A DNA stretch of 64,000 bases from Aldrovandia affinis (lineage: Eukaryota > Chordata > Actinopteri > Notacanthiformes > Halosauridae). Shown piece after piece: positions 1-62,907 of the stretch; positions within the stretch are counted from its first letter, which is position 1, and each line of letters starts with the position of its first letter. The stretch is taken from contig JAINUG010000007.1 of NCBI GenBank assembly GCA_029706075.1, positions 7,379,501 through 7,443,500 on the forward strand. Direction: 5' to 3'. Made by a program: the position numbers and the translations under genes. The notes below the pieces were generated by a model. The model had not been told where the DNA came from. It saw only the letters and a program-made list of their open reading frames with translations, and did not search any database.

Positions 1-1339
1 TAAATTTTGTTTAATGACTTAGTCATACTGCTCATTTAAAAGGAAAATACAATTTGAGGTTAGGGCTAAATATATTTGGGTTAAATGTATGCTAGAATTC
101 ATTGTCTGTACCTGGCCTGAAGATTTAGACTTACTTCTCTTTTCTGCTTGTGACTTTTGAAGAATGTTCTTATGCCAGCATTTCTTTTCATGTTAGCTGG
201 CCCAACAGAAAAAATTGTATTAGTTCAGGTAGCTAGCTACTGACTACTAGCTAACTATACCCATTACCTTACTGAACATGCACTGGATGAAGTAGCAAAG
301 TTAGCTAACTAGCACACGTGTAACTCACTTAATACACAACAACAGGTGGTTTGAAATATGGGGGATATTCACAATATTTAATCATCTAAACAGTATGAGA
401 CAGATACACACTGTAAAAACAATGGAATCAATCAATATGTTTTATGAATGACATGCCTAGCTTGCTAATTAGCTTGAGCTCCATATCTTTCTACAATGGC
501 TAACGGTGGCCCTTAAATAACCCTTGACTCTTGAGATATTTCACCGTCTGGACTGAATGAAATGAATACACATGGATATTGTTCCACTGCTAACATGGCT
601 GTATCTACCCTTGAGAAGATGATGCAGTGATGCTTGGGACAACTTTGCTTGGCACAGTCGCCAAGCAAATCATGTAGGTGTAGAGATCAAAAAAGTTGAC
701 TGCTTGTATTATAACCAGATTAATGCTATTCATCTCCAGAGATCATCTATCGATAGTTACTTTGTGTGTAGTTTTGAGTAGTCACTAGCCAAACGTAGCT
801 GACTGTTACACAAACCACTTTTTAGTGAGACTACAGTGGTGATAGGCTAATTTAGGCTAACGTAGCATACATTGACAGTGGGCCAGCTTCATTTTAGTGT
901 AGATTTTCAGTGGCCATTCATAAAATCATGACAGTCTACTACTCTTGTAGTGAATTAGCTACAAGTGTAGACTGATTACATAAAATATTTCTTAATGACA
1001 TTTCTGGTGACGAACAACCCTAGAGGGGCTAGGTCTCATGACCTCGGTAATTCTCGACTCCTAGATACGGCCCTGACTGCTAATATAGCTGCCACATATC
1101 ACAGTCCATAGCTTATCACAGTAATTTTACTTTGAAATCGTCACTTGCTTTATTAGTATGGGGAAAATTTGAAAGTTCCAGTATATACCAGCTACCGTTT
1201 CCATGTGTACAGCCTAGCACAGGGTACCTACATTTTTTTAAAAATTGTGATTTATTGAGGGCGACCGATGTGGCGTTTTCAGATGTCCCCCCGTGCCCCC
1301 TATGATGGCACCTATGATGCAGTTATACAAAGATGAATG
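1..1339. other. Left flank, no gene seen
   Basis: AT-rich single-copy-looking DNA with many TAGC/GCTAGC words. No reading frame or RNA gene is recognisable. A short block around 448-476 (TGACATGCCTAGCTTGCTA) reappears near 47080-47100, so part of this flank is itself an old dispersed repeat. The last six bases (1334-1339) are the target duplication of the element that follows. Confidence 0.6.
1334..1339. repeat. Target site duplication TGAATG, left copy
   Basis: TGAATG directly precedes the first base of the long inverted repeat at 1340 and is repeated directly after its last base at 11483-11488. Homology between the two arms stops exactly at this border, as expected for a duplicated target rather than element sequence. 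Confidence 0.8.
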
Positions 1340-1462
1340 AGTAGTATATATGGGGCACTTTAGGGCGCTTTTAATTACTTATTTAATTACTTTTTAAATT
1401 TCCAGTTGATAAGGGGAGGACGTATTAAGAGGAAGTATTTATGGCAGGAGGGTTTGTGTGAT

Positions 1463-1603
1463 GCAAGCCCCGTGGGGGTGTCGTGACCGCGTTTTTGGGT
1501 GGGGGAAGTTAGTGCAATGTCTCTTCATGTCCAACTGCAACCTCTAACACGCAACCCTGTGGGGGAGGTGTCGTGACAGCGTTTTTTGGGGGGAAGTTAT
1601 GTG
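1463..1603 (+). repeat. Subterminal direct repeat pair, left arm
   Basis: Two similar units of about 52 bp, 1463-1514 and 1551-1603, each run GCAA(G)CCC, GTGGGGG, TGTCGTGAC, a T-run with GGGGG, then GGGGAAGTTA. They lie 120-265 bp inside the terminus and are mirrored in the right arm at 11219-11359. Paired subterminal repeats often serve as recognition sites for an element's own protein; that role is inference here. Confidence 0.6.
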
Positions 1604-2209
1604 TTATCCATACTGACAGGCGTGCCTGGCTTGAATTGGCCAATGTTAGTTAACAGCTAAGATAGACAGCTGTTTTTTTGTTTAGCTTGCTATCTTTGTG
1701 GGTAAATTCATGTTTAAAATGAGACTTAATAGCATGTCAGATGGGATATCACGGCTAATGATAAAAATTCTTAAATACTTTTATTAAACCATTTTGTTGT
1801 GTATTTTCTGTGACGCTGTGGTACCACACAATATTCGAGGTTTAGTGCATAAGGGGCGTAAGTGCCATTTTCATAATTTTACAGGAGAGCAAAAACAAAA
1901 TATTTATTTCATTTATAACACCATATACAAACCACGCATGTTCTTAAAAAAGATTGCCTTTTATTATTTCAATGTTTAAAAAAAGAATAAAAAAATACAT
2001 TATAACATTACATTTTAATGTAAAAAAGCACTTATGTCTTTTTCGCGCTGACATTTCACACTCTTTTCTATAGTGCTATAAAGTGCTATAAAGGAGAACA
2101 GTGTAACTTGAACACAGGCATGTTTTCTTGTAAACACCCCAAAATAATTTTAGCAACTAAATTCAAGAACTTTATCATTTTTGTTTAATCTAATCTTTCA
2201 ATAGTCCTA

Positions 2210-3776
2210 CAGCCGTGGCCAAAAGTTTTGAGAATGACACAAGTATTGGTTTTCACAAAGTTTGCTGCTTCAGTGTTTTTAGATCTTTTTGTCAGATATT
2301 ACTATGGTATACTGAAGTATAATTACAAGCATTTCACAAGTGTCAAAGGCTTTTATTGACAATTACATTAAGTTTATGCAAAGAGTCAATATTTGCAGTG
2401 TTGACCCTTCTTTTTCAAGACCTCTGCAATTCGCCCTGGCATGCTGTCAATTAACTTCTGGGCCACATCCAGACTGATGGCAGCCCATTCTTGCATAATC
2501 AATGCTTGGAGTTTGTCAGAATTTGTGGGTTTTTGTTTGTCCATCCGCCACTTGAAGATTGACCACAAGTTCTCAATGGGATTAAGGTCTGGGGAGTTTC
2601 CTGGCCATGGACCCAAAATTTCGATGTTTTGTTCCCTGAGCCACTTAGTTATCACTTTTGCCTTAGGGCAAGGTGCTCCATCATGCTGGAAAAGGCATTG
2701 TTCGTCACCAAACTGTTCTTGGATGGTTGGGAGAAGTTGCTCTCGGAGGATGTTTTGGTACCATTCTTTATTCATGGCTGTGTTCTTAGGCAAAATTGTG
2801 AGTGAGCCCACTCCCTTGGCTGAGAAGCAACCCCACACATGAATGGTCTCAGGATGCTTTCCTGTTGGCATGACACAGGACTGATGGTAGCGCTCACCTT
2901 TTCTTCTCCGGACAAGCTTTTTTCCGGATGCCCCAAATAATCGGAAAGGGGATTCATCAGAGAAAACGACTTTACCCCAGTCCTCAGCAGTCCAATCCCT
3001 GTACCTTTTGCAGAATATCAGTCTGTCCCTGATGTTTTTCCTGGAGAGAAGTGGCTTCTTTGCTGTCCTTCTTGACACCAGGCCATCCTCCAAAAGTCTT
3101 CGCCTCACTGTGCGTGCAGATGCACTCACACCTGCCTGCTGCCATTCCTGAGCAAGCTCTGCACTGGTGGTGCCCCGATCCCGCAGCTGAATCAACTTTA
3201 GGAGACGGTCCTGGCGCTTGCTGGACTTTCTTGGGTGCCCTGAAGCCTTCTTCACAACAATTGAACCTCTCTCCTTGAAGTTCTTGATGATCCGATAAAT
3301 GGTTGATTTAGGTGCAATCTTACTAGCAGCAATATCTTTGCCTGTGAAGCCCTTTTTGTGCAAAGCAATGATGACTGCACGTGTTTCCTTGCAGGTAACC
3401 ATGGTTAACAGAGGAAGAACAATGATTTCAGGCACCACCCTCCTTTTAAAGCTTCCAGTCCGTTATTCTAACTCAATCAGCATGACAGAGTGATCTCCAG
3501 CCTTGTCCTCATCAACACTCTCACCTGTGTTAATGAGAGAATCACTGACATGATGTCAGCTATTCCTTTTGTGGCAGGGCTGAAATGCAGTGTAAATGTT
3601 TTTTGGGGATTAAGTTCATTTTCATGGCAAAGAGGGACTTTGCAATTAATTGCAATTCATCTGATCACTCTTCATAACATTCTGGAGTATATGCAAATTG
3701 CCATCATAAAAACTGAGGCAGCAAACTTTGTGAAAATTAATATTTGTGTCATTCTCAAAACTTTTGGCCATGGGTG
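2210..3776 (-). mobile_element. Complete Tc1-like transposon, DD35E type
   Basis: Bounded by TA at 2208-2209 and 3777-3778. The ends are CAGCCGTGGCCAAAAGTTTT and, on the other strand, CACCCATGGCCAAAAGTTTT. The right arm of the host element keeps the unoccupied site (CCTAGTATGCAG near 10563-10574), proving both borders. Inner direct repeats similar to the end motif lie about 200 bp inside, as in IR/DR-type Tc1 elements. The single transposase gene on the minus strand is open. The element entered after the two arms existed, since only the left arm has it. Confidence 0.95.
2386..3402 (-). CDS. Tc1/mariner transposase, DD35E, intact
   Basis: A 338-residue transposase that would cut out and reinsert the element by binding its terminal repeats. 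The frame opens at 3438, but I chose the Met at 3402 (MVTCKETRAV) because family members start there and the 12 preceding residues are not typical. Order: paired-like helix-turn-helix (about residues 1-50), a GHPRKS linker, second HTH (about 60-110), then the catalytic domain. Catalytic residues are D149 (FSDESPF), D241 (FQHDGAPC) and E277 (DLNPIENLW), with 35 residues between the last two. That spacing is DD35E, as in the group named Traveler, rather than the DD34E of Sleeping Beauty. The length is normal and there is no stop or frameshift. One oddity: the linker reads GHPR where most relatives have the AT-hook-like GRPR. Likely a recent copy; activity is unproven. Confidence 0.93.
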   Translation of the reverse strand: MVTCKETRAVIIALHKKGFTGKDIAASKIAPKSTIYRIIKNFKERGSIVVKKASGHPRKSSKRQDRLLKLIQLRDRGTTSAELAQEWQQAGVSASARTVRRRLLEDGLVSRRTAKKPLLSRKNIRDRLIFCKRYRDWTAEDWGKVVFSDESPFRLFGASGKKLVRRRKGERYHQSCVMPTGKHPETIHVWGCFSAKGVGSLTILPKNTAMNKEWYQNILREQLLPTIQEQFGDEQCLFQHDGAPCPKAKVITKWLREQNIEILGPWPGNSPDLNPIENLWSIFKWRMDKQKPTNSDKLQALIMQEWAAISLDVAQKLIDSMPGRIAEVLKKKGQHCKY

Positions 3777-5452
3777 TAGTATGCAGTGTGCACAGTTTGA
3801 CACGTAGAGTGAAGTAATTTCATTCTAACCATCAGAAATATTTATATAACAAAAAGAACATTAAAATTGATATTTATTTCATATATTCAGCATTATAGGT
3901 ATTCAAAGGTAATGTTTTGAAGTTAGTGTCGGTATACAGTGCTTTAAGTACAGTATCATGAAACAGTAAAAACATTCATTTTTTCATGGCAATCTGTAAC
4001 TTTGTTATCCAGCTTATTGCAATTGCAAAATGCTTTTTTCCTTTGAGTTCATCTTAGTTTGCTCAACTACTTGTTGTAACTGTCTTAAGTGAACTGTGTG
4101 ACACAATCTTCCAGCCACAAAACCATCACGGGGCCAAAACCAAACAATGACATTACCCAAAATCAATAACAAAACCACTTATCACCCAAACTACAATTTT
4201 ACCAGATCAACATAGGCACGTCAGGTTGATTCATACCAGAACAGCATAAGAGGAAATATGTAAACCAATTGTTTTACCTTTTAAAGCCTTCTTCATAGAT
4301 TTCCAGATGGGGGATCCATTATAATGACGTTAACATTCCACAACAATGCGGATTCGATAGTCATTAATGACAGGGTAAAAAGACAGTTTTGGCACATTGG
4401 AGAAAAACTTAAAGTACATTCTTCACCTTTAACCTTTCTACCATTAGTGAAAAAGAGTGTTCTCCCTCACAATTAACAATCAGGAAGGTAGTAGTAGCCA
4501 GGATTATGTCAACATTTTAGTAAAGTTAACTAAATGTCTGTGTTTTTAAGTGGATAACATTTCATATACTTTCCAATCATTTAATGCACGTCTGAGAATG
4601 TTAATGAACTAGTTAATTGCTTTAGCTCACTTCACTTGTTAGGTACGTTAGCTAACTTACATTATTTCTCGAGCAGTTCATTTTAGTTTGAAGTCAGATG
4701 GCTAGCTAACTAGTGATGTACATGTAGGCTAACGAGCTGTTACATTGACACAATAGCTATGCATTCACTTGTACAACCTAGCACTAGCTGTCTAATATCT
4801 GAAAAACTGAAAATGTAGCTAACGTTAGCAAGCCAACAGACTAAATGTTGATTGCTAAATAAAGTAGCCAGCTGATAAGTAATACACTAACCGTTTAGCA
4901 AACATTAGCAAGCCAGATATTGCACAACAATTGTGCAGTAGCTACAGTGTCAATTGCATTGTATTTTGATGTTAGAAAATGCTCTATTAGTTACCTAGCT
5001 CAATATCAAGTGATGCTTTTTGTAGCTAGAACACTCTCATTTCCTTTGAGGGCACAATCCATTCGTTGAATTTTGCAATAGTTTTGGTTTCTCCGCTTTT
5101 CAAATTTCCTGATATGTTAGTAAACATGACTGCCATGAGCCAATGCAACTATTGTGACAATATTGCATGTGGCGGTTAAACGGCATCTACTCCTAAACTG
5201 CTTGACCTACCGACATGTAATAAACTAATGGAATATTTCCATCATTTTCATCAACCAATTGGAAAAATGGTTATAAAATACAGATGGATTCTCAATAACT
5301 CACAAAACTTTATATGTGTGTAGAGTCCACTCTCCCATCATGGCATTGATTTGACCACATGGTGGCGCTATAACAGTTGCTATATTTTCAAACTTTGGTA
5401 TAGATATGTATCTCCTATGGTGTACATTGTTGCAAGTGACATTTTATCAGGT

Positions 5453-5926
5453 TCACCAATTTTGCCATGTAGCGGCAACTACCTCGGCTATACCTCTAAT
5501 TTCCTCTGTAGAACATTTCTCTCCAATCAATAGCAGCGGCACGTCCAGAGTGTAGCACAAACAAGGGTGAAACAGCCTTTTATATATTTTTTCATAATTC
5601 AAATATAAATAACTTTGGTCAGGCTCGTAAAGGCAACTGTGTTGAATCTGACTAGGGTGGCTAACTATACACCCATAGCAGTCCTCTTTCAAGTCCTGCT
5701 CAATAATATAGTCCAAGATGCAGGCTATTGACGCTTTTATCATCCTGACTATCCTGAATGTGGAAACACTGTCAGGAATAGGGTCATTAGGAGGTGTTGG
5801 CGGTAGAAAGGTCAGGTTGCTTTCGCCCATTTCTTGCCCCAAACGCTGCAGCCATACCGAGGTGTTGTCAAAGTCAATGGTCCCATCACAGGTGCTGACA
5901 TCTTGGTTGTTAGAGATGTGAGCCAT
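5453..5926 (-). CDS. Uncharacterised 157-aa protein of the long-TIR element
   Basis: I do not recognise this protein. It starts MAHISNNQ, is acidic in its N-terminal half, and holds a possible zinc-binding cluster near residues 83-97 (DCYGC...HPSQ..HSC), followed by a Tyr-rich stretch, a YKRLFHPCLCY segment and a hydrophobic LDVPLLLIGEKC strand. No signal peptide or clear membrane helix is seen. The start is supported by a 5' leader with a TATTTAAAGG box about 55-65 bp upstream and three GC boxes further up. The stop codon lies in the last bases of the left inverted repeat (5453-5464), so the final three codons are shared with the other arm. As the only convincing frame in the element core it could be a residual element gene. 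The Cys/His pattern resembles hypothetical proteins of large DNA transposons, but that is an impression, not a match. Confidence 0.5.
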   Translation of the reverse strand: MAHISNNQDVSTCDGTIDFDNTSVWLQRLGQEMGESNLTFLPPTPPNDPIPDSVSTFRIVRMIKASIACILDYIIEQDLKEDCYGCIVSHPSQIQHSCLYEPDQSYLYLNYEKIYKRLFHPCLCYTLDVPLLLIGEKCSTEEIRGIAEVVAATWQNW

Positions 5927-5980
5927 GTTTTTTTTTTTTTTGCAGTTTGGCAGAGATGTTTAAAACAGATAACCACGAAT

Positions 5981-6055
5981 CCTTTAAATACAGATAAGAC
6001 AAAGGTGGGGGCGGGTTAAAAACGAATGGTTGGGCGGGAGCCAGGCGTGGGGGCG
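5981..6055 (-). promoter_or_regulatory. GC-box/TATA-like promoter of the 157-aa frame
   Basis: On the minus strand, reading toward the ATG at 5926: CGCCCCCACG (6045-6055), CCCGCCCA (6031-6038), CCCGCCCCCACC (6004-6015), then TATTTAAAGG (5981-5990). The leader ends in a run of about 14 A just before the ATG. Clustered GC boxes plus a TATA-like box in an otherwise AT-rich region support real transcription of the downstream frame. Confidence 0.45.
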
Positions 6056-6059
6056 TTTG

Positions 6060-7955
6060 AGACCTTAGGTTGTTTGGATTACGGATGTTATAATTTTCTA
6101 GAAAGAAAATGTAACGCCTTCTGTTCCTTCCACCACAAAAACAGTTGGTCTATCTTTTTAAAGTAAGTGGTCAGTTCATGTAGATCTTTCCAAAGAACGA
6201 AAATCCTGCATAAATTAATCTGCCATTCTCGTTTCTCGTACTTTTAAAATTGCATCGCATTAAATACTTATTACAAAACACATCCTGGGCTCTTCTCTCT
6301 TGTATCAAAACAATTCATGTAGCTGTATTTACAAAGGATGTTCAGATGTGCAGTGCATATACAGGAGCTTTTTTGACAATTTACATGATTTTAAACATAC
6401 CAAATCCCATTATTAATGAAAAAAATGAAAAAATACTAAAATGTGTTTTACAGTGGCACAATTTAATTCAGAGAAATATATACATTCAACCCAACAAAGA
6501 GGGCTTAAATCAGCTCCCTTATGAATGAAGTATTGTGAGATGTGCTATGACCCACAGTAATGCCGGTCAAAGAAGATGTAAACTTAGATGTAAGCACATA
6601 AAATTGTATTATTTTATACAAACAATGCTTTTAGATGTGTTTTAGAAGACACAATGGCACCTTTTTTGTCGTATATTACCATTTTAGAAGTTCAGTAGTA
6701 AAGCTACCACCAGCTTCAGTTTTATCAAACTACCAACGTATTGTTTCAGCTGAGCATTTTAAAAGCCACGTACAAAGTTGAACTTAGTACATGTTATTCC
6801 ATCTGAAACCCCCATTGAGGCTTCCAAATATCTTACCGTTTTATCATTCCCAGACTGCATCAGTGAGAGGACAAACCAACAGCGAGTGTCTGTGTGTTAT
6901 TCTCTCCATTCTAACGCATTTTTTAATGTTTTTAAATCACACTTCCAATGAAGCAGACTGCTCTTTGGCACAACAGTTTTTTAACTCATCAGAATATGTG
7001 ATGCCATTACTGTTTATTCTCTAAGACAGAGCATAATTGTGCACCTTCTATAAATGGCTTCCACAGCTGAACTTTCACTGAAGCAGTTGAGATAGAACAC
7101 CTTGCTACAGATAACAGTAGCAGTGCCCAACCATTTAGAGATAAAACATTTATACATTTATAATGGCTAAACAACTAGATGTAATTATTATTATTTGCAG
7201 GTAGTGCTTGGAAGAATGATTACACATGACACATTTTGAACCAATTAATGGTTCATGAGGAGAATATGTTTAAATAATGGCAGAAAATGTAGAACAGTAG
7301 ACCTCAAGAGCCCTTGAGGCAAAAGAGCATCAGAACCGCTGTTGTATGTGTGAGGCATTGCTAACATGCAATATTTTAAATCATTTTAATATGTTCAACT
7401 GATATATTCAATATATTCAATAATTCAACTGACTGTTATAGTAACGCTGTTTCTGATCAATAGCCTATTGCTGAGATGGAATATACGATTTTATACTTTT
7501 CGATTTTGGATAAACCATGTGTTTTTTATAAGCACGCCATCCCAAGTGGTGGAAAGGAGAAAACACATTTTGATAGGTTGCCAGATAGTGCTGAGAAGAA
7601 AATAGGTGTCAAGAAAAGATATTGTGTAAATGTTTCTGTTATTACATGAAAAGCTTAATGGTTTTACACCACCAATAGCTATGCACTGAGGCTTTGTGTA
7701 TGAGCTGTTGCAGGACTAAAGGTCGCTCGCATTACATCCTTTTCCACTGAGAAGTGCGTTCAGTGCCAGCAACCAGAGGTAAAGAGTGTTGGGAAAATTG
7801 TGTCAAAGCAATCATTTACAACAGAATTTTGTGAATTATTCCATTTTTTAAGGTGTCGTCATGAACCTTGGAGACATGTTTTACTTTGACTTTACTATAT
7901 TCTTGCACACAGTTACAAACTGAATAAAAAGCAGAATTGACAGTGTCTATTATAG
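6060..7955. other. Core of the long-TIR element, no gene recognised
   Basis: AT-rich. Two short plus-strand frames (6250-6528, 92 codons; 6791-7024, 77 codons) have no recognisable motif and ordinary AT-rich composition, so they are not called. The stretch 8558-8865 after the solo LTR is likewise empty. Confidence 0.5.
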
Positions 7956-7959
7956 CTAT

Positions 7960-8553
7960 TGTGGCAGCCCAAGGGGCTGGGCACAAGGAAATGGCTGCCT
8001 GGCCTACAACACATGGAAGCCTGAAAACACTACATTTCCCAGCAGGCCACAGGAACACCTGAACGAAGTCAAGGCAACGGGACTAGCGACCAGCTGAAGG
8101 CCATTTCAAGGCCTATTTAAAGGGCTGATTCCCACTACACTGGGAGAGGAGTAGGAAAGTGTTGGTGAGGAGTTGGTGAGTGTTTGTTAAAAGAGAGAGA
8201 GAGAGTACTGTGAAGTTGTTGACCAGCCAGTATTTGGAGAAAGAGTGATTGTTGGAGTGTTTTTGGTATATGAATTTGGATTGTTGGAGGACCCCCCTTT
8301 GGATTTGACTACGGACTGGATTGCGGACTACGAACTGGATTTTGGATTTGGCTTTGGTCCTTGACAACGAGAATAGGATTTGTGGACTTTGTGTTTGTAT
8401 TCCCCTGAAGACCCCTCCCTTTGTTTTGTGTTGTCAAGTAATAGGATAATAAATTATCATTTTGTTTTTGAATACTGCCTCCTCCTTGTTCTTGAACTTG
8501 CCTACGCCCTCTGCAAGGTCCGTGTGTGTCGCCCAACCCCTGGGGACACCACA
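7960..8553 (+). mobile_element. Solo LTR (family A), 594 bp
   Basis: Starts TGTGGCAGCC and ends GGGGACACCACA, flanked by a 4-bp duplication CTAT (7956-7959 and 8554-8557). A TATTTAAAGG box lies at 8113-8122 and an AATAAA-type signal near 8449, giving a normal U3-R-U5 order on the plus strand. A second copy in reverse orientation lies at 44690-45230. No internal retrotransposon sequence is attached, so this is a recombination product. Confidence 0.8.
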
Positions 8554-8865
8554 CTATATAAACATATTTAAAAATAAACATATTTACATATAGACAAACA
8601 TAGAGTACACCTAGCACACTATACATGTTTGAATGTGTACAAAGGTTTGTGTTTATATCCCCAAACAGTTATACTTTTGAACTATTCTGCATATTACATG
8701 CAAAAACTGAAAATTTATTGGTTTACAGCAGCTAAGTTTTTTAGGCACCATGTTTCTTTTAATAACTTTTAAAGAAACGAGCCCAAGGAACTATGTAGTG
8801 AAAGTTGCATGCCGATACATTAAGTAGTTTTGTCGGAGATGTCATTTGAGTGTTTTACAAAAAAT

Positions 8866-11482
8866 CAAAATTGGTGAACCTGATAAAATGTCACTTGCAA
8901 CATAGGAGATACATATCTATACCAAAGTTTGAAAATATAGCAACTGTTATAGCGCCACCATGTGGTCAAATCAATGCCATGATGGGAGAGTGGACTCTAC
9001 ACACATATAAAGTTTTGTGAGTTATTGAGAATCCATCAGAATTTTATAACCATTTTTCCAATTGGTTGACGAAAATGATGGAAATATTCCATTAGCTTAT
9101 TACATGTCGGTAGGTCAAGCAGTTTAGGAGTAGATGCCGTTTAACCGCCACATGCAATATTGTCACAATAGTTGCATTGGCTCATGGCAGTCATGTTTAC
9201 TAACATATCAGGAAATTTGAAAAGCGGAGAAACCAAAACTATTGCAAAATTCAACGAATGGATTGTTCCCTCAAAGGAACTGAGAGTGTTTTAGCTACAA
9301 AGAGCATCACTTGATATTGAGCTAGGTAACTAATAGAGCATTTTCTAACATCAAAATACAATGCAATTGACACTGTAGCTACTGCACAATTGTTGTGCCA
9401 TATCTGGCTTGCTAATGTTTGCTAAATGGTTAGTGTATTACTTATCAGCTGGCTACTTTATTTAGCAATCAACGTTTAGTCTGTTGGCTTGCTAACGTTA
9501 GCTACATTTTCAGTTTTTCAGATATTAGATAGCTAGTGCTAGGTTGTACAAGTGAATGCATAGCTATTGTGTCAATGTAACAGCTCGTTAGCCTACATGT
9601 ACATCACTAGTTAGCTAGCCATCTGACTTCAAACTAAAATGAACTGCTCGAGAAATAATGTAAGTTAGCTAACGTACCTAACAAGTGAAGTGAGCTAAAG
9701 CAATTAATTAGTTCATTAACATTCTCAGACGTGCATTAAATGATTGGAAAGTATATGAAATGTTATCCACTTAAAAACACAGACATTTAGTTAACTTTAC
9801 TAAAATGTTGACATAATCCTGGCTACTACTACCTTTTCCTGATTGCTAATTGTGAGGGAGAACGCTCTTTTTCACTAATGGTAGAAAGGTTAAAGGTGAA
9901 AAATGTACTTTAAGTTTTTCTACAATGTGCCAAAACTGTCTTTTTACCCTGTCATTAATGACTATCGAATCCGCATTGTTGTGGAATGTTAACGTCATTA
10001 TAATAGATCCCCCAAGTGGAAATCTATGAAGAAGGCTTTAAAAGGTAAAACAATTGGTTTACATATTTTCTCTTATGCTGTTCTGGTAGGCAACGAAAAC
10101 AATATCTGATGTTTGAATCAACCTGACGTGCCTATGTTGATCTGGTAAAATTGTAGTTTGGGTGATAAGTGGTTTTGTTATTGATTTTGGGTAATGTCAT
10201 TGTTTGGTTTTGGCCCCGTGATGGTTTTGTGGCTGGAAGATTGTGTCACACAGTTCACTTAAGACAGTTACAACAAGTAGTTGAGCAAACTAAGATGAAC
10301 TCAAAGGAAAAAAGCATTTTGCAATTGCAATAAGCTGGATAACAAAGTTACAGATTGCCATGAAAAAATGAATGTTTTTACTGTTTCATGATACTGTACT
10401 TAAAGCACTGTATACTCGACACTAACTTCAAAACATTACCTTTGAATACCTATAATGCTGAATATATTAAATAAATATAAATTTGAATGTTCTTTTTGTT
10501 ATATAAATATTTCTGATGGTTAGAATGAAATTACTTCACTCTATGTGTCAAACTGTACACTGCATACTAGGACTATTGAAAGATTTTTTAAATTAAATAG
10601 TATGTTGATTAACTAAGAATAAACAAAAATGATAAAGTTCTTGAATTTAGTTGCTAAAATTATTTTGGGGTGTTTACAAGAAAACATGCCTGTGTTCAAG
10701 TTACACTGTTCTCCTTTTTAGCACTATAGAAAAGAGTGTGAAATGTCAGCGTGAAAAAGACATAAGTGCTTTTTTACATTAAAATGTAATGTTATAATGT
10801 ATTTTTTAATTCTTTTTTTAAACATTGAAATAATAAAAGGCAATCTTTTTTAAAAACATGCGTGGTTTGTATATGGTGTTATAAATGAAATAAATACAAT
10901 CATGCAAATTTTGTTTTTGCTCTCCTGTAAAATTATGAAAATGGCACTTACGCCCCTTACGCACTAAACCTCGAATATTGTGTGGTACCACAGCGTCACA
11001 GAAAATACACAACAAAATGGTTTAATAAAAGTATTTAAGTAATGTTTTGGTTCAATTTTTATCATTAGCCGTTATATCCCATCTGACATGCTATTAAGTC
11101 TCATTTTAACATGAATTTACCCACAAAGATAGCAAGCTAAACAAAAAAACAGCTGTCTATCTTAGCTGTTAACTAACATTGGCCAATTCAAGCCAGGCAC
11201 GCCTGTCAGTATGGATAACACATAACTTCCCCCCAAAAAACGCTGTCACGACACCTCCCCCACGGGGTTGCGTGTTAGAGGTTGCAGTTGGACATGACGA
11301 GACATTGCACTAACTTCCCCCACCCAAAAACGCGGTCACGACACCCCCACGGGGCTTGCGTCACACAAACCCTCCTGCCATAAATACTTCCTCTTAATAC
11401 GTCCTCCCCTTATCAACCGGAAATTAAAAAAGTTATTAAATAAGTAATTAAAAGCGCCCTAAAGTGCCCCATATATACTACT
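8866..11482 (-). repeat. Right terminal inverted repeat (uninterrupted)
   Basis: Complement of the left arm, ending in ATATATACTACT at 11482 just before TGAATG. It keeps the empty Tc1 site near 10563-10574. The frame 10818-11015 on the minus strand corresponds to 1794-1979 of the left arm with a small insertion; neither has an ATG. Confidence 0.85.
11219..11359 (-). repeat. Subterminal direct repeat pair, right arm
   Basis: Mirror image of 1463-1603: units at about 11219-11271 and 11308-11359 with the same CGGTCACGACA / CTGTCACGACA cores. Both units are kept in both arms. Confidence 0.6.
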
Positions 11483-11488
11483 TGAATG
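11483..11488. repeat. Target site duplication TGAATG, right copy
   Basis: Identical to 1334-1339 and directly adjoining the end of the right inverted repeat. Confidence 0.8.
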
Positions 11489-15491: not shown

Positions 15492-16680
15492 CACTCAGTG
15501 GCCACTTTATTAGGTACACCTTTCTAGTACTGGGTAGGACCCCCCTTTGCCCCCAGAACAGCTTCTTCGTGGCATGGATTCAAAGGTGCTGGAAACATTC
15601 CTCAGAGATTCTGGTCCATGTTGACCTGATAGCATCACGCAGTTGCTGCAGATTTGTCGGCTGCACATTCATGTTGCGAATCTACCGTTCCGCCACATAC
15701 CACAGGTGCTCTATTGGACTGAGATCTGGTGACTGTGGAGGCCATTGGAGTACACTGAACTCATTGTCATGTTCGTGGAACCAGCTTGAGATGACGTGTG
15801 CTTTGTAACATGACGCATTATGCTGCTGGAAGTAGCCATTAGAAGATGGGTAGACTGTGTCTATAAAGGGATGCACATGGTCAGCAACAAGACTCAGGTA
15901 GGCTGTAGAATTTAAACAATGCTCAATTAGTATTAAGTGGCCTAATGTGTGCCAAGAAAACATTCCCCACACCATTACCCCACCATACCAGCCTGAACTG
16001 TTGACACAAGGCAGGATGAATGCATGGATTCATGTTGTTTCTGCCAAATTCTGACCCTACCATCTGCATGTCGCAGCAGAAATGAAGATTTGTCAGACCA
16101 GGCAACGTTTTTACAATGTTCAACTGTTCAGTTTTGGTGAGCCTGTGACCACTGTAGCCTCACTTTCCTGTTCTTAGCTGACAGGAGTGAAACCTGGTGT
16201 GGTCTTCTGCTGCTGTAGCCCATCCACTTCAAGGTTCGAAGTGTTGTGCATTCAGAGATGCTCTTCTACATACCACTGTTGTAACGCATGGTTATTTGAG
16301 TTACTATCGCCTTCCTGTCAGCGTGAACCAGTCTGGCCATTCTCCTCTAACCTCCCTCATTAACAAGGTATTTTCGCCCACAGAAATGTCACTCACTGGA
16401 TGTTTTTGTTTTTCACACCATTCTCTCTAAACTCTAGAGACTCTATGAGATCAACAGTTTCTGAGATACTCACACCACCCTGTCTGGCACCAACAGTCAT
16501 TCCATGGTCAAAGTCACTTAGATCACATTTCTTCCCCATTTTTGGTCTGACAAACAACTGAACCTCTTGACCATGTCTGCATGCTTTTATACATTAAGTT
16601 GCTGTCACATGATTGACTGATTAGATAATTGCATTAACAAGCAGGCGTACAGGGGTACCTAATAAAGTGGCCACTGAATG
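15492..16680 (-). mobile_element. Tc1-like transposon, full-length but decayed
   Basis: TA-flanked (15490-15491, 16681-16682) with inverted ends CACTCAGTGGCCACTTTATT / AATAAAGTGGCCACTGAATG. Minus-strand transposase pieces are recognisable: DKSSFLLRHADG-like, MVWGMFSWHTLG, FQQHNASCYKAHVIS (second Asp region mutated) and SPDLSPIEHLW, with at least one frameshift near 15950-15975. It is the same family as 39037-40017. Confidence 0.9.
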
Positions 16681-16682
16681 TA

Positions 16683-16763
16683 TACAGTATATATATATAT
16701 ATATATATACTGTATATATACTGTATATATATATATATATATACTGTATATATACTGTATATA
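16683..16763. repeat. AT-rich microsatellite next to the Tc1 end
   Basis: Runs of TATA broken by ACTG at regular spacing. It abuts the TA target of the preceding element. Confidence 0.85.
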
Positions 16764-39036: not shown

Positions 39037-40017
39037 CACTCAGTGGCCACTTTATTAGGTACACCTTTACACCTGCTCGTTAATGCAATTATCTAATCAG
39101 CCAATCATGTGGCAGCAACTCAATGCATAGAAGCATGCAGACATGGTCAAGAAGTTCAGTTGTTGTTCAGACCAAAAATCGAATGGGGAAAAATGTGATC
39201 TAAGTGACTTGGATGATTGGAATGATTGTTGGTGCCAGACGGGGTGGTGTGAGTATCTCAGAAACTGCTGATCTCATGGGATTTTCACACACAACAGTCT
39301 CTAGAGAATGGTGCGAAAAACAAAAAACATCCAGTGAGTGGCAGTTCTGTGGGTGAAAACGCCTTGTTAATGAGAGAGGTTAGAGGAGAATGGCCAGACT
39401 GGTTCAAGCTGGAAGGTGAAATTATGTTATGCAGTGGTTACCACAGTGGTATGCAGAAGAGCATCTCTGAATGCACACCACATCAAATCTTGAAGTGGAT
39501 GGGCTACAGCAGCAGAAGACCACACTGGGTTCCACTCCTGTCAGCTAAGAACAGGAAAGTGAGGCTACAGTGGGCACAGGCTCACCAAAACTGGACAGTT
39601 GAAGACCGGAGAAACGTCTTCTGGTCTGACGAATCTCGATTTCTGCTGCGACATGCAGATGGTAGGGTCAGAATTTGGCACAAACAACATGAATCCATGC
39701 ATCCATCCTGCCTTGTGTCAACAGTTCAAACTGGTGGTGGTGATGTAATGGTGTGGGGAATGTTTTCTTGGCACACATTAGGCTCATTAACACTAATTGA
39801 GCATCGTTTAAATGCCACAGCCTACCTGAGTCTTGTTGCTCTTGTTGAATGGGAGATTCGTGACATGAATGTGCAGCCAACAAATCTGAGGAACTGCGTG
39901 ATGCTATTATGTCAACATGGACCAGAATCTCTGAGGAATGTTTCCAGCACCTTGTTGAATCCATGCCACGAAGAATTCAGGCTGTTCTGTCCTACCCAGT
40001 ACTAGAAAGGTGTACCT
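39037..40017 (+). mobile_element. Tc1-like transposon, internally deleted and 3' truncated
   Basis: Left end CACTCAGTGGCCACTTTATT after TA at 39035-39036; the right end stops within the inverted repeat (AGAAAGGTGTACCTA). Same family as 15492-16680 but opposite orientation. Confidence 0.85.
39334..40005 (+). pseudogene. Defective Tc1-like transposase
   Basis: A 223-codon frame with the second HTH region, RKVRLQWAQAHQNWTVED, the first catalytic Asp (VFWSDESRFLL) and VMVWGMFSWHTLG. An in-frame deletion of over 100 bp joins YLSLVA directly to the C-terminal EWEIRDMNVQPTNLR, removing the second Asp and the Glu. The protein cannot be catalytic. The N-terminal third is out of frame upstream of 39334. 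Confidence 0.85.
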
Positions 40018-58423: not shown

Positions 58424-58543
58424 TGTACCGATGATAGCCTGTAAGGGGCTCCAAGTAGCCACACTCTATGTATAGGATGTGACGTGCAATAAAGGGAAGT
58501 TATTGTTGAATGGAGAACTCGAGTCGGTGTGTAAATCAATACA
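58424..58543 (+). repeat. 5' LTR (120 bp)
   Basis: TGTACCGATG...CAATACA. Very short for a Gypsy LTR. AATAAA at 58488-58493 is the polyadenylation signal. A TATGTATAGG stretch at 58468-58477 may be the TATA-like region. Confidence 0.95.
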
Positions 58544-58558
58544 TGGTACCAGGAGTGG
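58544..58558 (+). promoter_or_regulatory. Primer-binding site
   Basis: TGGTACCAGGAGTGG directly follows the LTR, the position and TGG start of a tRNA primer site. It resembles the initiator-Met type but with mismatches; the tRNA is left open. Confidence 0.7.
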
Positions 58559-58586
58559 TTGGTTTTAGCTCAAAAAAAGGAGTAAG

Positions 58587-59413
58587 ATGAACAACATTCG
58601 ACCACCAGACGAGTTAAAGTTAAGTGGAAATGTCCACGAGAACTGGAAAGCCTTTAAACAGAGTTTTGAACTCTATGTGTTGGCGATAGGATTGGACGAG
58701 AGAGAGGAGCGCCGAAGGATAGCGTTACTCCTCACAGTGGCGGGCCGGGCTGCAGTGGACGTTTTCAACACGTTTGAGTTCCCGGAGGGCGACAGCGGCA
58801 AGTATGCGAAAGTGATTGAAAAGTTTGAGGAATATTGCACGCCAAGAAAAACGAGATTTTTGAACGGTCACGTTTTTCGCAGCAGAGTACAAGCAGAGTC
58901 AGAATCCATTGAACAGTTTGTCACGGACTTGCGTTTGAAAAGCCAGTCGTGCAACTTCGCACACTGTGTGACTCGTTAATAAGAGACCAGATAGTCATTG
59001 GTGTTTTGGACAAGAAAGTGAGAATGCAACTGCTCAAAGAGCCGGACCTCAGTCTAGACAAAGCTATTCGGATTTGCCAGGCGTCAGAGAGCGAAGGTGC
59101 AGCTTAAATCCTTTGACACTGACAGCGGGTCCGCAGCAGTGGATGCGGTGCAGAGGCGTGCGAAAGGAGCTAGCAGAATGAATAGCAAAGGAAAGGCACA
59201 CACGCCCGACGAAAGTAACTGTGACAAATGCGGCGGCAAACATGCGCCGAGGAGCTGCCCAGCCTACGGTAGAGACTGTAACAAATGCGGGAGGAAAATC
59301 ATTACGCACGGTGTTGCTTCTCAAAGAAAACAGTGCAGGTGGTGCAAGGCGCGACACCACCGACAGCGAGGAGGACGGCGAAGCGTTCTTCGTGGGAGCT
59401 GTGGAAGGCAGTG
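58587..59413 (+). pseudogene. gag, frameshifted
   Basis: Begins MNNIRPPDELKLSGN with a Gypsy-type gag core (WKAFKQSFELYV...FEEYCTPRKTRF...LKSQSCNFAH) and reads open to 58976. Frame breaks near 58958-58970, 59085-59104, 59291-59298 (in an A run) and about 59338-59352 split the rest. A CCHC zinc knuckle CDKCGGKHAPRSC starts at 59220 and a second is cut by the third break. The product would package element RNA in the cytoplasm. Confidence 0.85.
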
Positions 59414-59691
59414 AGAGCAGCACCACGGATGAGTGGATAGCTGACTTGGGAGTCAACGGAGCGACAATTCCCCTGAAATTAGACACGGGGGCACAGGTGA
59501 ACATATTGACAATGAAAGACTACCATAGATTGTACAAAAAGCCAAAGGTGCATGTGAAAAGAGTCAACCTGAGAACGTACAATGATGAACCAATTCCCAC
59601 AAAAGGGGTATGTAGAGTCACACTGTCTAGAGAAGGATGTTCAGTTAATGCAATGTTTGTACTGGTTGAGGTGACAGACAGTCAATACTAG
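59413..59691 (+). pseudogene. Retropepsin-type protease region
   Basis: Aspartic protease with active site LDTGAQVNIL (Asp codon 59482-59484) preceded by VNGATIPLK. Open within this part (frame 59221-59691), then a frame break at about 59683-59692 before the reverse transcriptase. It would process the polyprotein. Confidence 0.8.
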
Positions 59692-59814
59692 GTCTGAAAT
59701 CCTGTGAGGAATTGGGGCTTATCAAAAGGGTTCATGTAATAGACAGATCTGTGGTGACATCTAGAGATGCAGCTGATAATCAGCACGAGACAACAGTAGC
59801 TGACAGGAGGAGAT

Positions 59815-61040
59815 AGAAAAAGAATACAGGGACGTATTCGAAGGCATTGGTCGCCTACCAGGTCAGCACAAAATCCAGTTAAAAGACAATGCAGAGCCAG
59901 TCATCCACCCAGCTAGGAAGGTGCCGGTGGCCCTTAAAGCTAGGCTGAAATCAGAACTACAGTCCCTCATAGAGAAAGGCATAGTGAGGAAAGTAGAGGA
60001 GCCAACAGAGTGGGTTAATTCTCTGGTGATAGTGGAGAAAAAAAATGGAGATCTGAGGCTCTGTATAGACCCCAAAGACCTGAACAAGTGGATCAAAAGG
60101 GAACACTACAAACTACCGACGAACTCTGACATCACTAATGCTATGGCGGTGCACGCTTCTTCTCTAAACTAGATGCATCGTCAGGGTTCTACCAAATCAT
60201 TCTGGACGAGGACAGCGCCAACCTGTGTACCTTCAACACACCTTTTGGCAGGCACTGTTTTCTTAAACACCATTCGGGATCTGCTCAGCCCCGGAGGTGT
60301 TCCACAAAACAGTGCAGCAGCTGTTTGACGGCATGGAGGGCGTGGGAGTGTTCCTCGATGACGTAGTGGTTTGGGGGAAAACAAAAACAGAGCACGACGA
60401 AAGACTGCGTCAGGTGTTGGCACAGGCACGCAAGTCAGGCCTGAAACTAAACAAGAAGAAATGTGAATTCGGAATGACAGAGGTCACATACCTTGGTGAC
60501 AAGTTGTCCGCTGAAGGAATACAGCCTGATCCGGAAAAGATAAGAGCAATAGTGGAAATGCCAGCGCCCAGAGACAAAACAGAACTGCAAAGAGCATTAG
60601 GACTAGTCAACTACATGGGGAAGTTCATCCCAAATCTTTCGGCAAACACAAAAGCACTCCGAAGACTGCTGGAGAAACAAAATGAGTGGCAGTGGGAGCA
60701 CGAACACGCAACTGAATGGGAGGTGTTAAAGACCAGTCTAATCAAAGAGCCGGTATTAAAATACTATGACACAGACAAACCGGTCAAAGTCTCAACCGAT
60801 GCATCCAAAGATGGTCTGGGAGCGGTGCTGCTCCAGCAACACGGCGGGGAATGGTATCCCGTTGCCTACGCATCCCGATCAATGTCATCTGCAGAGCAGA
60901 ATTATGCGCAAATTGAGAAAGAGACACTGGGTGCGGTTTTGGATGCGAAAAGTTCCATGAATATGTCTACGGCAGAGAAGTAATACTTGAGACCGATCAC
61001 AAGCCGCTGATTGCTATCTCAAGAAAGCCACTTGGAGATG
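59815..61040 (+). pseudogene. Reverse transcriptase and RNase H, frameshifted
   Basis: RT fingers/palm begin near 59820 (GRLPGQHK), with KKNGDLRLCIDPKDLNKW (60040-60090) and KLDASSGFYQ. The catalytic FLDD Asp pair is at 60357-60362. RNase H has VSTDASKDGLGAVL (Asp codon at 60798) and TDHKPL near 60996. Frame breaks: about 59800-59815, 60144-60152 (GG run), 60262-60270, about 60936-60940 (T run) and 61030-61036 (C run). The longest open piece is 60297-60983 (228 codons). Confidence 0.85.
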
Positions 61041-61062
61041 CCCGCCACGCATTCAGCGTCTC

Positions 61063-62514
61063 ATGCTACGGCTACAGAGGTATCACCTGACATTCGAGTT
61101 CACACCAGGCAAATACTTGATAGTTGCAGATGCTCTCAGCAGAGCGAGTTTGCGTGACACGTGTCATAGCAGCACGGAACATGATGTTCAGGTCCATGTA
61201 GACTGTGTTAAAGCCCGGCTGCCTGTGTCAGAGGCGAAGTGGACTCAGTTTGCAGAGGCAACAGCAAGCGACAGAGAGCTGCAGGAAGTCATAACGAGCA
61301 TTCACTCACCAGAAGAAGTTGCAGAGAAGTTGCCGAGTCCGTATCGGCATTTTAGGGACGAACTGTCTGTGGTTGATGGAGTACTCCTTAAAGGGAACAA
61401 GATAGTTGTTCCTAGCTCCATGAGACCACAGATGGCCAAGTTAGCACACGAAGGCCATTTGGGAATCGAGAAATGCAAGAGGCGTGCTAGAGAGGTATTG
61501 TTCTGGCCATACATGAACAGGGATATTGAGACTCTAGTGCAGCGCTGTGAAACATGCCAACAGCATAGATATAGGCAGCCCAAGGAGCCGCTTCTGCCCC
61601 ATAGCAAACCGGACGAGCCATGGAGGAAAGTTGGTGCAGACTTATTCCAGCTAAAAGGAAAAGATTATTTAATCATTGTTGACTACCATTCGAACTACCC
61701 AGAATACGCGTTGTTGTCTGATACTACAGCAAAGCAAGTGATCACTCGCACCAAGGCCATCTTCGCAAGGCACGGCATTCCCGTCACCTTAGTAAGCGAC
61801 AACGGACCGCAGTTTAGCTGTCGGGAATTTGCAGACTTTGCTGAACAATATGGTTTCGAGCATGTAACCTCAAGTCCGCTGTACCCACAGTCGAATGGAC
61901 TGGCGGAAAAAGGGGTGCAAATCATCAAACGGTTGCTAAGGAAAGCAGCGGAGGCAGGCGAGGATCCATATCTCGCAGTCCTGAACTACAGAGCATCGCC
62001 GTTGGAATGCGGCCGTTCACCAGCAGAGTTGCTGATGAACAGGAAGCTCAAGACGAAGCTACCGTCAGCAGAACACCTGCTTCTGAGTGCAGGCCAACGT
62101 GGCCCGCCGAGAGAAAACCGGTCCAAACGTGCATACGACAAAAGTGCACAGCCCTTATGCCCACTGGAACGAGACGACCTGGTGAGAGTCAGAGGTGAAG
62201 GAAGATGGGGACCGGTTGCACAGGTCCTCAAAGAGACCACCCCAAGATCCTACGAGGTGCTCACCGAGCATGGCAGCAGGATCCGCAGAAATCGAAGGCA
62301 CCTGCTGAAAATTCCACGCACGGAATCTCACGATCCAGAGAACGGTGATGCTGTAGAGGTGCAGAGTGAGCAGTTAGGTGAGCAAGGCGAACAAGGGAAT
62401 GATCTGGCAGATACAGAACGCTCTCCAGTGGACTCACCATCCTCTGGGGTAGAGCGAGTTGAAAGGCCTAGGAGATCCATTGTCAAACCTAAAAGACTTG
62501 TAGAGGAGTGTTAA
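61063..62514 (+). CDS. Integrase-containing 3' part of pol, open frame
   Basis: 483 codons. The start is simply the first Met after the last frame break; in the intact element it would be internal to pol. It opens with the RNase H end ([14 protein letters not shown]), then the zinc-binding H129, H132, C162, C165. The catalytic triad is D193 (GADLF), D246 (VSDNGPQF) and E282 (NGLAEKG), a DD35E spacing. The C-terminal module near residues 370-410 is GPY/F-like ([16 protein letters not shown]...). An acidic, Pro-rich tail ends PKRLVEEC. No chromodomain is evident. Inserts the DNA copy into the host genome. No stop or shift. Confidence 0.85.
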
Positions 62515-62770
62515 TATACAGGTCAGTGCTAGGATTTAAAATAAGTGTTTGACCGGAGAGAAGGAGCAGATGTAAACAGATGTGAAATAATCGTTCAGAG
62601 CATGGTTTAATATGAAAATGTTTATTTGTATGACTAGTTAATGTTAAGTCCATACAGTGGTAAAGTGATTATCTGTAAGACCTCTAAATAGTAGGCCTAC
62701 AGGCACCTACTTTATTTTATTGTATTTTTATGTTGTTAGAAGTTTATTCTACCAGAGCCACATTGTTCTT

Positions 62771-62787
62771 GTTTAGAAAAAGGGAGA
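62771..62787 (+). promoter_or_regulatory. Polypurine tract
   Basis: GTTTAGAAAAAGGGAGA ends directly at the 3' LTR, the expected plus-strand priming site. Confidence 0.75.
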
Positions 62788-62907
62788 TGTACCGATGATA
62801 GCCTGTAAGGGGCTCCAAGTAGCCACACTCTATGTATAGGATGTGACGTGCAATAAAGGGAAGTTATTGTTGAATGGAGAACTCGAGTCGGTGTGTAAAT
62901 CAATACA
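62788..62907 (+). repeat. 3' LTR (120 bp)
   Basis: I find no difference from the 5' LTR. Followed by GATAT. Confidence 0.95.

Follow-up and report, generated by a model that had tools for sequence, protein, structure and literature searches.

The window, meaning the whole 64,000-nucleotide stretch of Aldrovandia affinis DNA analysed here, contains at 1340-11482 an element with long inverted arms whose ends resemble those of Maverick/Polinton elements. It spans 10,143 bp including later insertions (C2244:7380834-7390982 in the host assembly), and its ends, AGTAGT...ACTACT, are exactly mirrored. Its features are listed below.

1334..1339, no strand: left target-site duplication TGAATG, the copy flanking the AGTAGT end.
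1340..2209, plus strand: outer part of the left inverted arm, first bases AGTAGT, from the arm alignment and Kimura two-parameter distance (K2P).
1480..1588, plus strand: end module near GTCGTGACCGCGTTTTTGG, two copies at 1480 and 1570, mirrored at 11252 and 11342 on the minus strand.
2210..3776, minus strand: Tc1-type transposon inside the left arm, with TA at 2208-2209 and 3777-3778 and a transposase open reading frame (ORF) at 2386-3438.
3779..5464, plus strand: inner part of the left inverted arm, from the arm alignment and K2P.
5453..5926, minus strand: gene X, a truncated Maverick accessory gene of 157 aa, cut after about codon 151, where the arm junction takes the place of the 3' part; relatives with an intact gene have about 208 aa.
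5465..8865, no strand: unique core separating the arms, from self-alignment.
7960..8553, plus strand: solo long terminal repeat (LTR) inside the core, 594 bp, with CTAT on both sides and an empty site in relatives.
8866..11482, minus strand: right inverted arm, last bases ACTACT, from self-alignment.
11483..11488, no strand: right target-site duplication TGAATG, the copy flanking the ACTACT end.

The outer arm, 1340-2191, matches the reverse complement of 10616-11482 at 94.3% (K2P 0.0237 over 856 bp), and the inner arm, 3777-5464, matches that of 8866-10569 at 96.2% (K2P 0.0188 over 1672 bp); both distances count substitutions only and were computed piece by piece. The Tc1 copy, with a transposase ORF of 350 aa, and the solo LTR are insertions later than the element itself: the right arm keeps the empty TA site that matches the left-arm Tc1 insertion. 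Leaving the two insertions out, the element comes to about 8.0 kb, of which each arm takes 2.6 kb and the core 2.8 kb. The core counts 3401 bp, and 2807 bp once the LTR is removed. An earlier note, made from the window alone, had described the inverted arms (K2P 0.019-0.024 by our measure), the mirrored ends, the TGAATG duplication and a core below 3 kb without the solo LTR, and all of these were found where it had placed them. In a pattern search of the window, the copies of the end module show 0 and 2 differences; at a loose threshold of up to 5 differences, the remaining 51.5 kb holds three matches.

Vertebrate Mavericks, according to the parts of PMC8097293 available to us and cited throughout, carry (AGT)2//(ACT)2 termini, a 6-bp target-site duplication and terminal inverted repeats (TIRs) of 46-1447 bp, and are 12.7-24.6 kb long. 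They encode a protein-primed PolB and an integrase, and their end repeats are thought to permit jump-back initiation; no Maverick particle has been observed (PMC8097293). The window element has the same (AGT)2//(ACT)2 termini and a 6-bp duplication of Maverick type, TGAATG on both sides, in agreement with the Polinton/Maverick signature that the earlier note had recognised. It shares with vertebrate Mavericks its termini, duplication, inverted repeats, related ends and gene X homologues, but differs in its length of 10.1 kb against the published intact range of 12.7-24.6 kb, and in its 2.6-kb arms against TIRs of 46-1447 bp (PMC8097293), its relatives extending up to a whole-element palindrome. 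It also differs in gene content: none of the core genes, PolB and integrase included, was found in the ORFs scanned.

None of the PolB matches (PF03175) listed genome-wide (121; best 91 of 252 candidates scored) lies within the element. Its scanned ORFs, which cover part of those of at least 55 aa, hold no Pfam domain of rve integrase, ATPase, capsid or protease; no genome-wide search with these families was made. The 157-aa core ORF has no match in the Pfam scan, and 10 further ORFs of 61-119 aa (nine in the core, one in the right arm) gave a single match below cut-off, to POPDC1-3 (E 0.018). The earlier note saw no PolB, integrase, ATPase or capsid gene in the core: this stands for the ORFs scanned, but the core does contain one gene, the truncated gene X.

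We searched the host genome (1.22 Gb, 2576 contigs) for relatives, which are named here by contig. The outer 301 bases of the element have at least 64 matches (best 40 of 100 candidates scored). The 20-nt end pattern, allowing up to two mismatches, has 50, of which 36 fall into 18 convergent pairs; the reversed control has none. An exact search of viral_contigs with the 25-nt end gave no match. Both ends could be read in 24 copies, a set that includes the window element, C1911, C1772, C2389, C2133 and C569b: the 6-bp duplication is perfect in 18 and matches at five of six positions in two (C1775 and C2179). Copies with their own 6-bp duplications, expected from the earlier note, are thus present. 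In end-reaching alignments, other copies start at 1337-1340 and end at 11482-11485, the exceptions being two distant relatives that extend to 1331 (L018) and 11493 (L012). The two ends of C569b differ in their number of AGT units, three against two, a difference that a jump-back step there could produce. The window arm sequence recurs at C1775 and C2262. Separately, a 320-bp piece of the arm (3782-4101) recurs alone at about 20 or more sites, mostly at 85-95%; since it is found without the rest, the arm seems to hold a separate dispersed repeat.

Gene-bearing relatives are also present. C1761:663046-680543 (17.5 kb) has AGTAGT ends and TATGTG on both sides; it encodes an rve integrase (E 2.8e-13) and a chromodomain (E 6e-6) on one strand and PolB (E 3.4e-19) on the opposite one. 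This is the kind of longer relative that the earlier note had proposed to look for. Its ends are 66-73% alike to those of the window element. Beyond the end repeat, it matches the window arm only inside its right end, and its gene X lies near its left end. Matched ends are joined to PolB at C2179 and C1989, as well as at C1795:601043-620987, which has no duplication. At C1939, a window-type end (96.4% over 386 bp, from position 43 on) adjoins rve and PolB sequence that is 93-95% like C1761, apart from one 155-bp piece at 84%; C1939 is the nearest candidate found for a helper lineage. Two further loci carry gene X-type matches near both ends: C2500:644222-662490, which has PolB, and C2389:2549989-2565459, which has CATGAA on both sides and no PolB among the matches listed. 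This suggests TIRs near 2 kb in both, exceeding the published maximum.

The share of the element that lies within inverted-repeat matches was determined for ten copies with both ends in hand and no PolB match, some of which carry later insertions. It is 1.00 (C472), 0.88, 0.81, 0.67, 0.54, 0.52 (window), 0.46, 0.38, 0.33 and 0.09 (C1799). C1911 and C1912, for example, carry later insertions of long interspersed element (LINE) sequence. In C472, which is 5.27 kb long, the palindrome extends from end to end: this copy is self-complementary over 1-5269, its central loop is no longer than 35 bp, its arms differ by K2P 0.005, and GGTGTG flanks it on both sides. One half of C472 aligns with each of the two outer arms of C1772 (16.4 kb), C1923b (15.8 kb) and C1624 (15.5 kb). 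The outer 822 bp of C472, in whole or in part, are 92-97% alike to the ends of seven PolB loci (C2500, C1900, C113, C1213, C283, C157 and C668) and 87-91% alike to more distant ends. C1772, C1923b and C1624 have a palindromic centre in common, formed by the spacers between facing gene X copies; these spacers were read, the arms not at every base. Spacer K2P is 0.048 between C1772 and C1923b, and 0.007 and 0.014 between the halves within each. Outer arms of the window element stand at K2P 0.070-0.076 from C1775, 0.046 from C2262 and 0.033 from C1952; within a copy, the distance is 0.024 in the window element and 0.007 in C1775. Outer ends and palindrome centres would therefore fit a joint renewal of the arms.

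The genome contains at least 150 matches to gene X (best 150 of 308 candidates scored). As a single query, gene X found no homologue among 5.8 billion proteins; as an alignment query it found 25 protein homologues at E up to 1, one of which (P0002) is from the host. It has no Pfam family above cut-off and no PHROG, only two matches in the PDB (E 0.07 and 0.36), and 15 pattern matches in viral_contigs, none of them confirmed. In an 18-row alignment that includes homologues from other sources, C-x-G-C, Q and H-x-C occur in all rows and H and S in nearly all, a pattern that looks like a zinc site. Gene X faces PolB in 15 of the 18 rows with a PolB within 16 kb, the exceptions being two rows of C635 and one of C1691. 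Head-to-head pairs of gene X occur at 14 places, with no PolB within 16 kb among the matches listed, the flank available in contigs C945, C266 and C2399 being shorter than 16 kb to one or both sides of the pair. For these distances, 86 of the 121 PolB matches were entered; the remainder mainly represent a second piece of a locus already entered, and inspection shows none near a gene X pair. Two more neighbouring pairs point apart, at 8-9 kb. Among the 47 gene X matches of at least 135 aa, 34 are free of stops: 13 of 19 with an identity of at least 75%, 20 of 22 in the 55-74% range and one of six below it. Among the pairs listed, the ratio of nonsynonymous to synonymous substitution rates (dN/dS) is 0.16-0.44 in those with dS of at least 0.2 and ranges from 0.20 to 4.28 in closer pairs; rows with a frame stop were retained with the stop codon masked.

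At two palindrome centres, an ORF lies between facing gene X copies (L067:1307-1702 in C2001 and L068:555-1004 in C945). Both ORFs closely resemble the macrodomain protein OARD1 / C6orf130 (PDB 4j5r, E 1.5e-39 and 3.9e-42) and, judged by this similarity, the ORF is a captured host-like gene.

Its ends and duplication assign the window element to a family in which complete members encode PolB and integrase. We regard it, with a probability of roughly 80%, as a non-autonomous derivative, or satellite, of Maverick/Polinton elements; for such copies, the best model is that of snap-back replication products mobilised in trans, a formation and mobilisation that we infer. The earlier note's suggestion of a non-autonomous derivative of a related full element thus gains support from C1761, whose related ends accompany PolB and rve; the drive in trans is a step of the model. 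During protein-primed linear replication, a displaced strand would fold back and copy itself, and a Maverick end would thereby be duplicated head to head in inverted orientation. The resulting linear palindrome would possess two origins and two integrase sites, so that the enzymes of a full Maverick could replicate and integrate it in trans. Subsequent internal deletions would lead to single-gene forms, such as the window element and C1755, or to gene-less ones. The left arm of the window copy would correspond to the terminal 2.6 kb of the right end, with its junction falling in the 3' part of gene X.

A more ordinary history is plain decay: full Mavericks would have lost their genes by internal deletion, and post-insertion recombination or gene conversion would have lengthened the arms, with no self-amplifying satellite. 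We consider this unlikely, although several observations agree with it. According to PMC8097293, 96% of vertebrate Maverick loci are degraded; TIR growth appears to affect gene-bearing copies as well, since C2500 combines PolB with gene X-type matches near both ends; and inner arms are as similar between copies as within one copy. Decay alone accounts poorly for the intact duplication around the whole C472 palindrome, and the centre common to three copies, together with the window arm sequence at C1775 and C2262, argues that derived forms were themselves copied. Foldback and Galileo are transposase-type elements whose ends and duplication lengths differ from those of the window element. They too have very long inverted repeats and a reduced or absent core, and very long TIRs are typical of them (PMC3573991 and PMC4168063, in the parts available, and general background). 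A cut-and-paste transposon of such another superfamily is nevertheless very improbable here, for the ends are homologous to those of elements encoding PolB and integrase, the AGT repeats and 6-bp duplications fit the published Maverick signature, and gene X is shared with Mavericks; the genes in those relatives found to have the same ends are PolB and rve, no search for transposase families having been made. Least probable of all is an inverted segmental duplication or an assembly artefact. Fold-back chimeras are known from some libraries, but the two arms differ in sequence (by K2P 0.005-0.057 and by indels), the flanks of the two sides are unlike each other and carry 6-bp duplications, and the Tc1 copy of the window element occupies a single arm, the other keeping an empty site. 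Homology continuing past TGAATG, named by the earlier note as a sign of segmental duplication, is not what the copies display: it stops at the duplication or no further than about 10 bases away.

Several observations weigh against the satellite interpretation. No replication intermediate, virion or transposition event has been seen. The duplication is absent, with zero to three of six positions matching, in four of the 24 copies (C1795, C1923b, C1772 and C2133); as C1772, C1923b and C2133 are palindromic or long-armed, recombination between copies may also act. The ends of C1761 are so distant that this copy cannot itself be the helper; at C1939 the outermost 42 bases are missing. The TIR of C1799 is ordinary, about 320-360 bp only, and the halves of the C1624 spacer differ by 0.057. 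Inner-arm K2P between the window element and C1775 (0.016-0.018) or C2262 (0.017) is no higher than that between its own arms (0.0188), the value for C1755 being 0.022; its two arms are unpaired in the 232-bp inner tree, and the 330-bp end tree pairs them only loosely, with L021. Inner arms so alike across copies look like an insertion burst from near-identical sources, and a renewal of the arms at each round is not shown. As for gene X, dN/dS reaches 4.28 between the two C1923 arms and 1.59 for C935/C1815, and synonymous versus nonsynonymous changes in the shared-centre copies give p 0.0096 for C1772/C1923b and p 0.66 for C1772/C1624. With this mixed signal, selection on gene X may have acted in full Mavericks alone.

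Beyond the satellite reading itself, we tentatively raise the possibility of a standing satellite population: self-complementary snap-back molecules, dependent on helper Mavericks, that would keep gene X for their own spread. Some might be packaged, given that copies of 15.5-16.4 kb are about the size of a Maverick genome. If true, this would be the first defective-interfering or satellite system of Mavericks within the literature covered, and fossil evidence of linear extrachromosomal Maverick replication. Gene X might act in the regulation of the Maverick cycle, which is a guess.

Adenovirus variants with symmetrical left-end duplications offer a comparison: there, a protein-primed linear genome carries one end duplicated in inverted orientation and is not integrated. 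Adeno-associated virus (AAV) is a single-stranded DNA parvovirus whose ends are hairpins and whose replication is not protein-primed. Its snapback subgenomes, as described in the available parts of PMC8235507, are likewise self-complementary derivatives of one genome end and subgenomic passengers; unlike them, the window element and its relatives are chromosomal insertions, and we use AAV as a working parallel, claiming no kinship. Judging by titles and the opening lines of abstracts, we recognised no palindromic or long-arm non-autonomous Mavericks in the open-licence literature (subscription papers, Repbase reports and preprints lie outside this coverage), and the available parts of PMC6431247 and PMC12910113 name none. 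The elements may thus be new as far as that literature shows, an earlier report in print being possible. Protein-primed, linear and strand-displacing replication could, on snapping back, leave a palindrome that runs from end to end and is integrated with a correct 6-bp duplication. Palindromic copies are a possible fossil record of the snap-back mechanism and a means to test it; they may reveal a layer of cheats or satellites in an animal virus lineage. The satellites also point to one uncharacterised accessory gene, gene X, that deserves study.

Elsewhere in the window, a Gypsy-type retroelement at 58424-62907 has identical 120-bp direct terminal repeats and ORFs for reverse transcriptase, RNase H and integrase; it is probably young. 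A Tc1-type transposase fragment (HTH_Tnp_Tc3_2) at 39334-40005 overlaps an inverted pair with 15883-16700.

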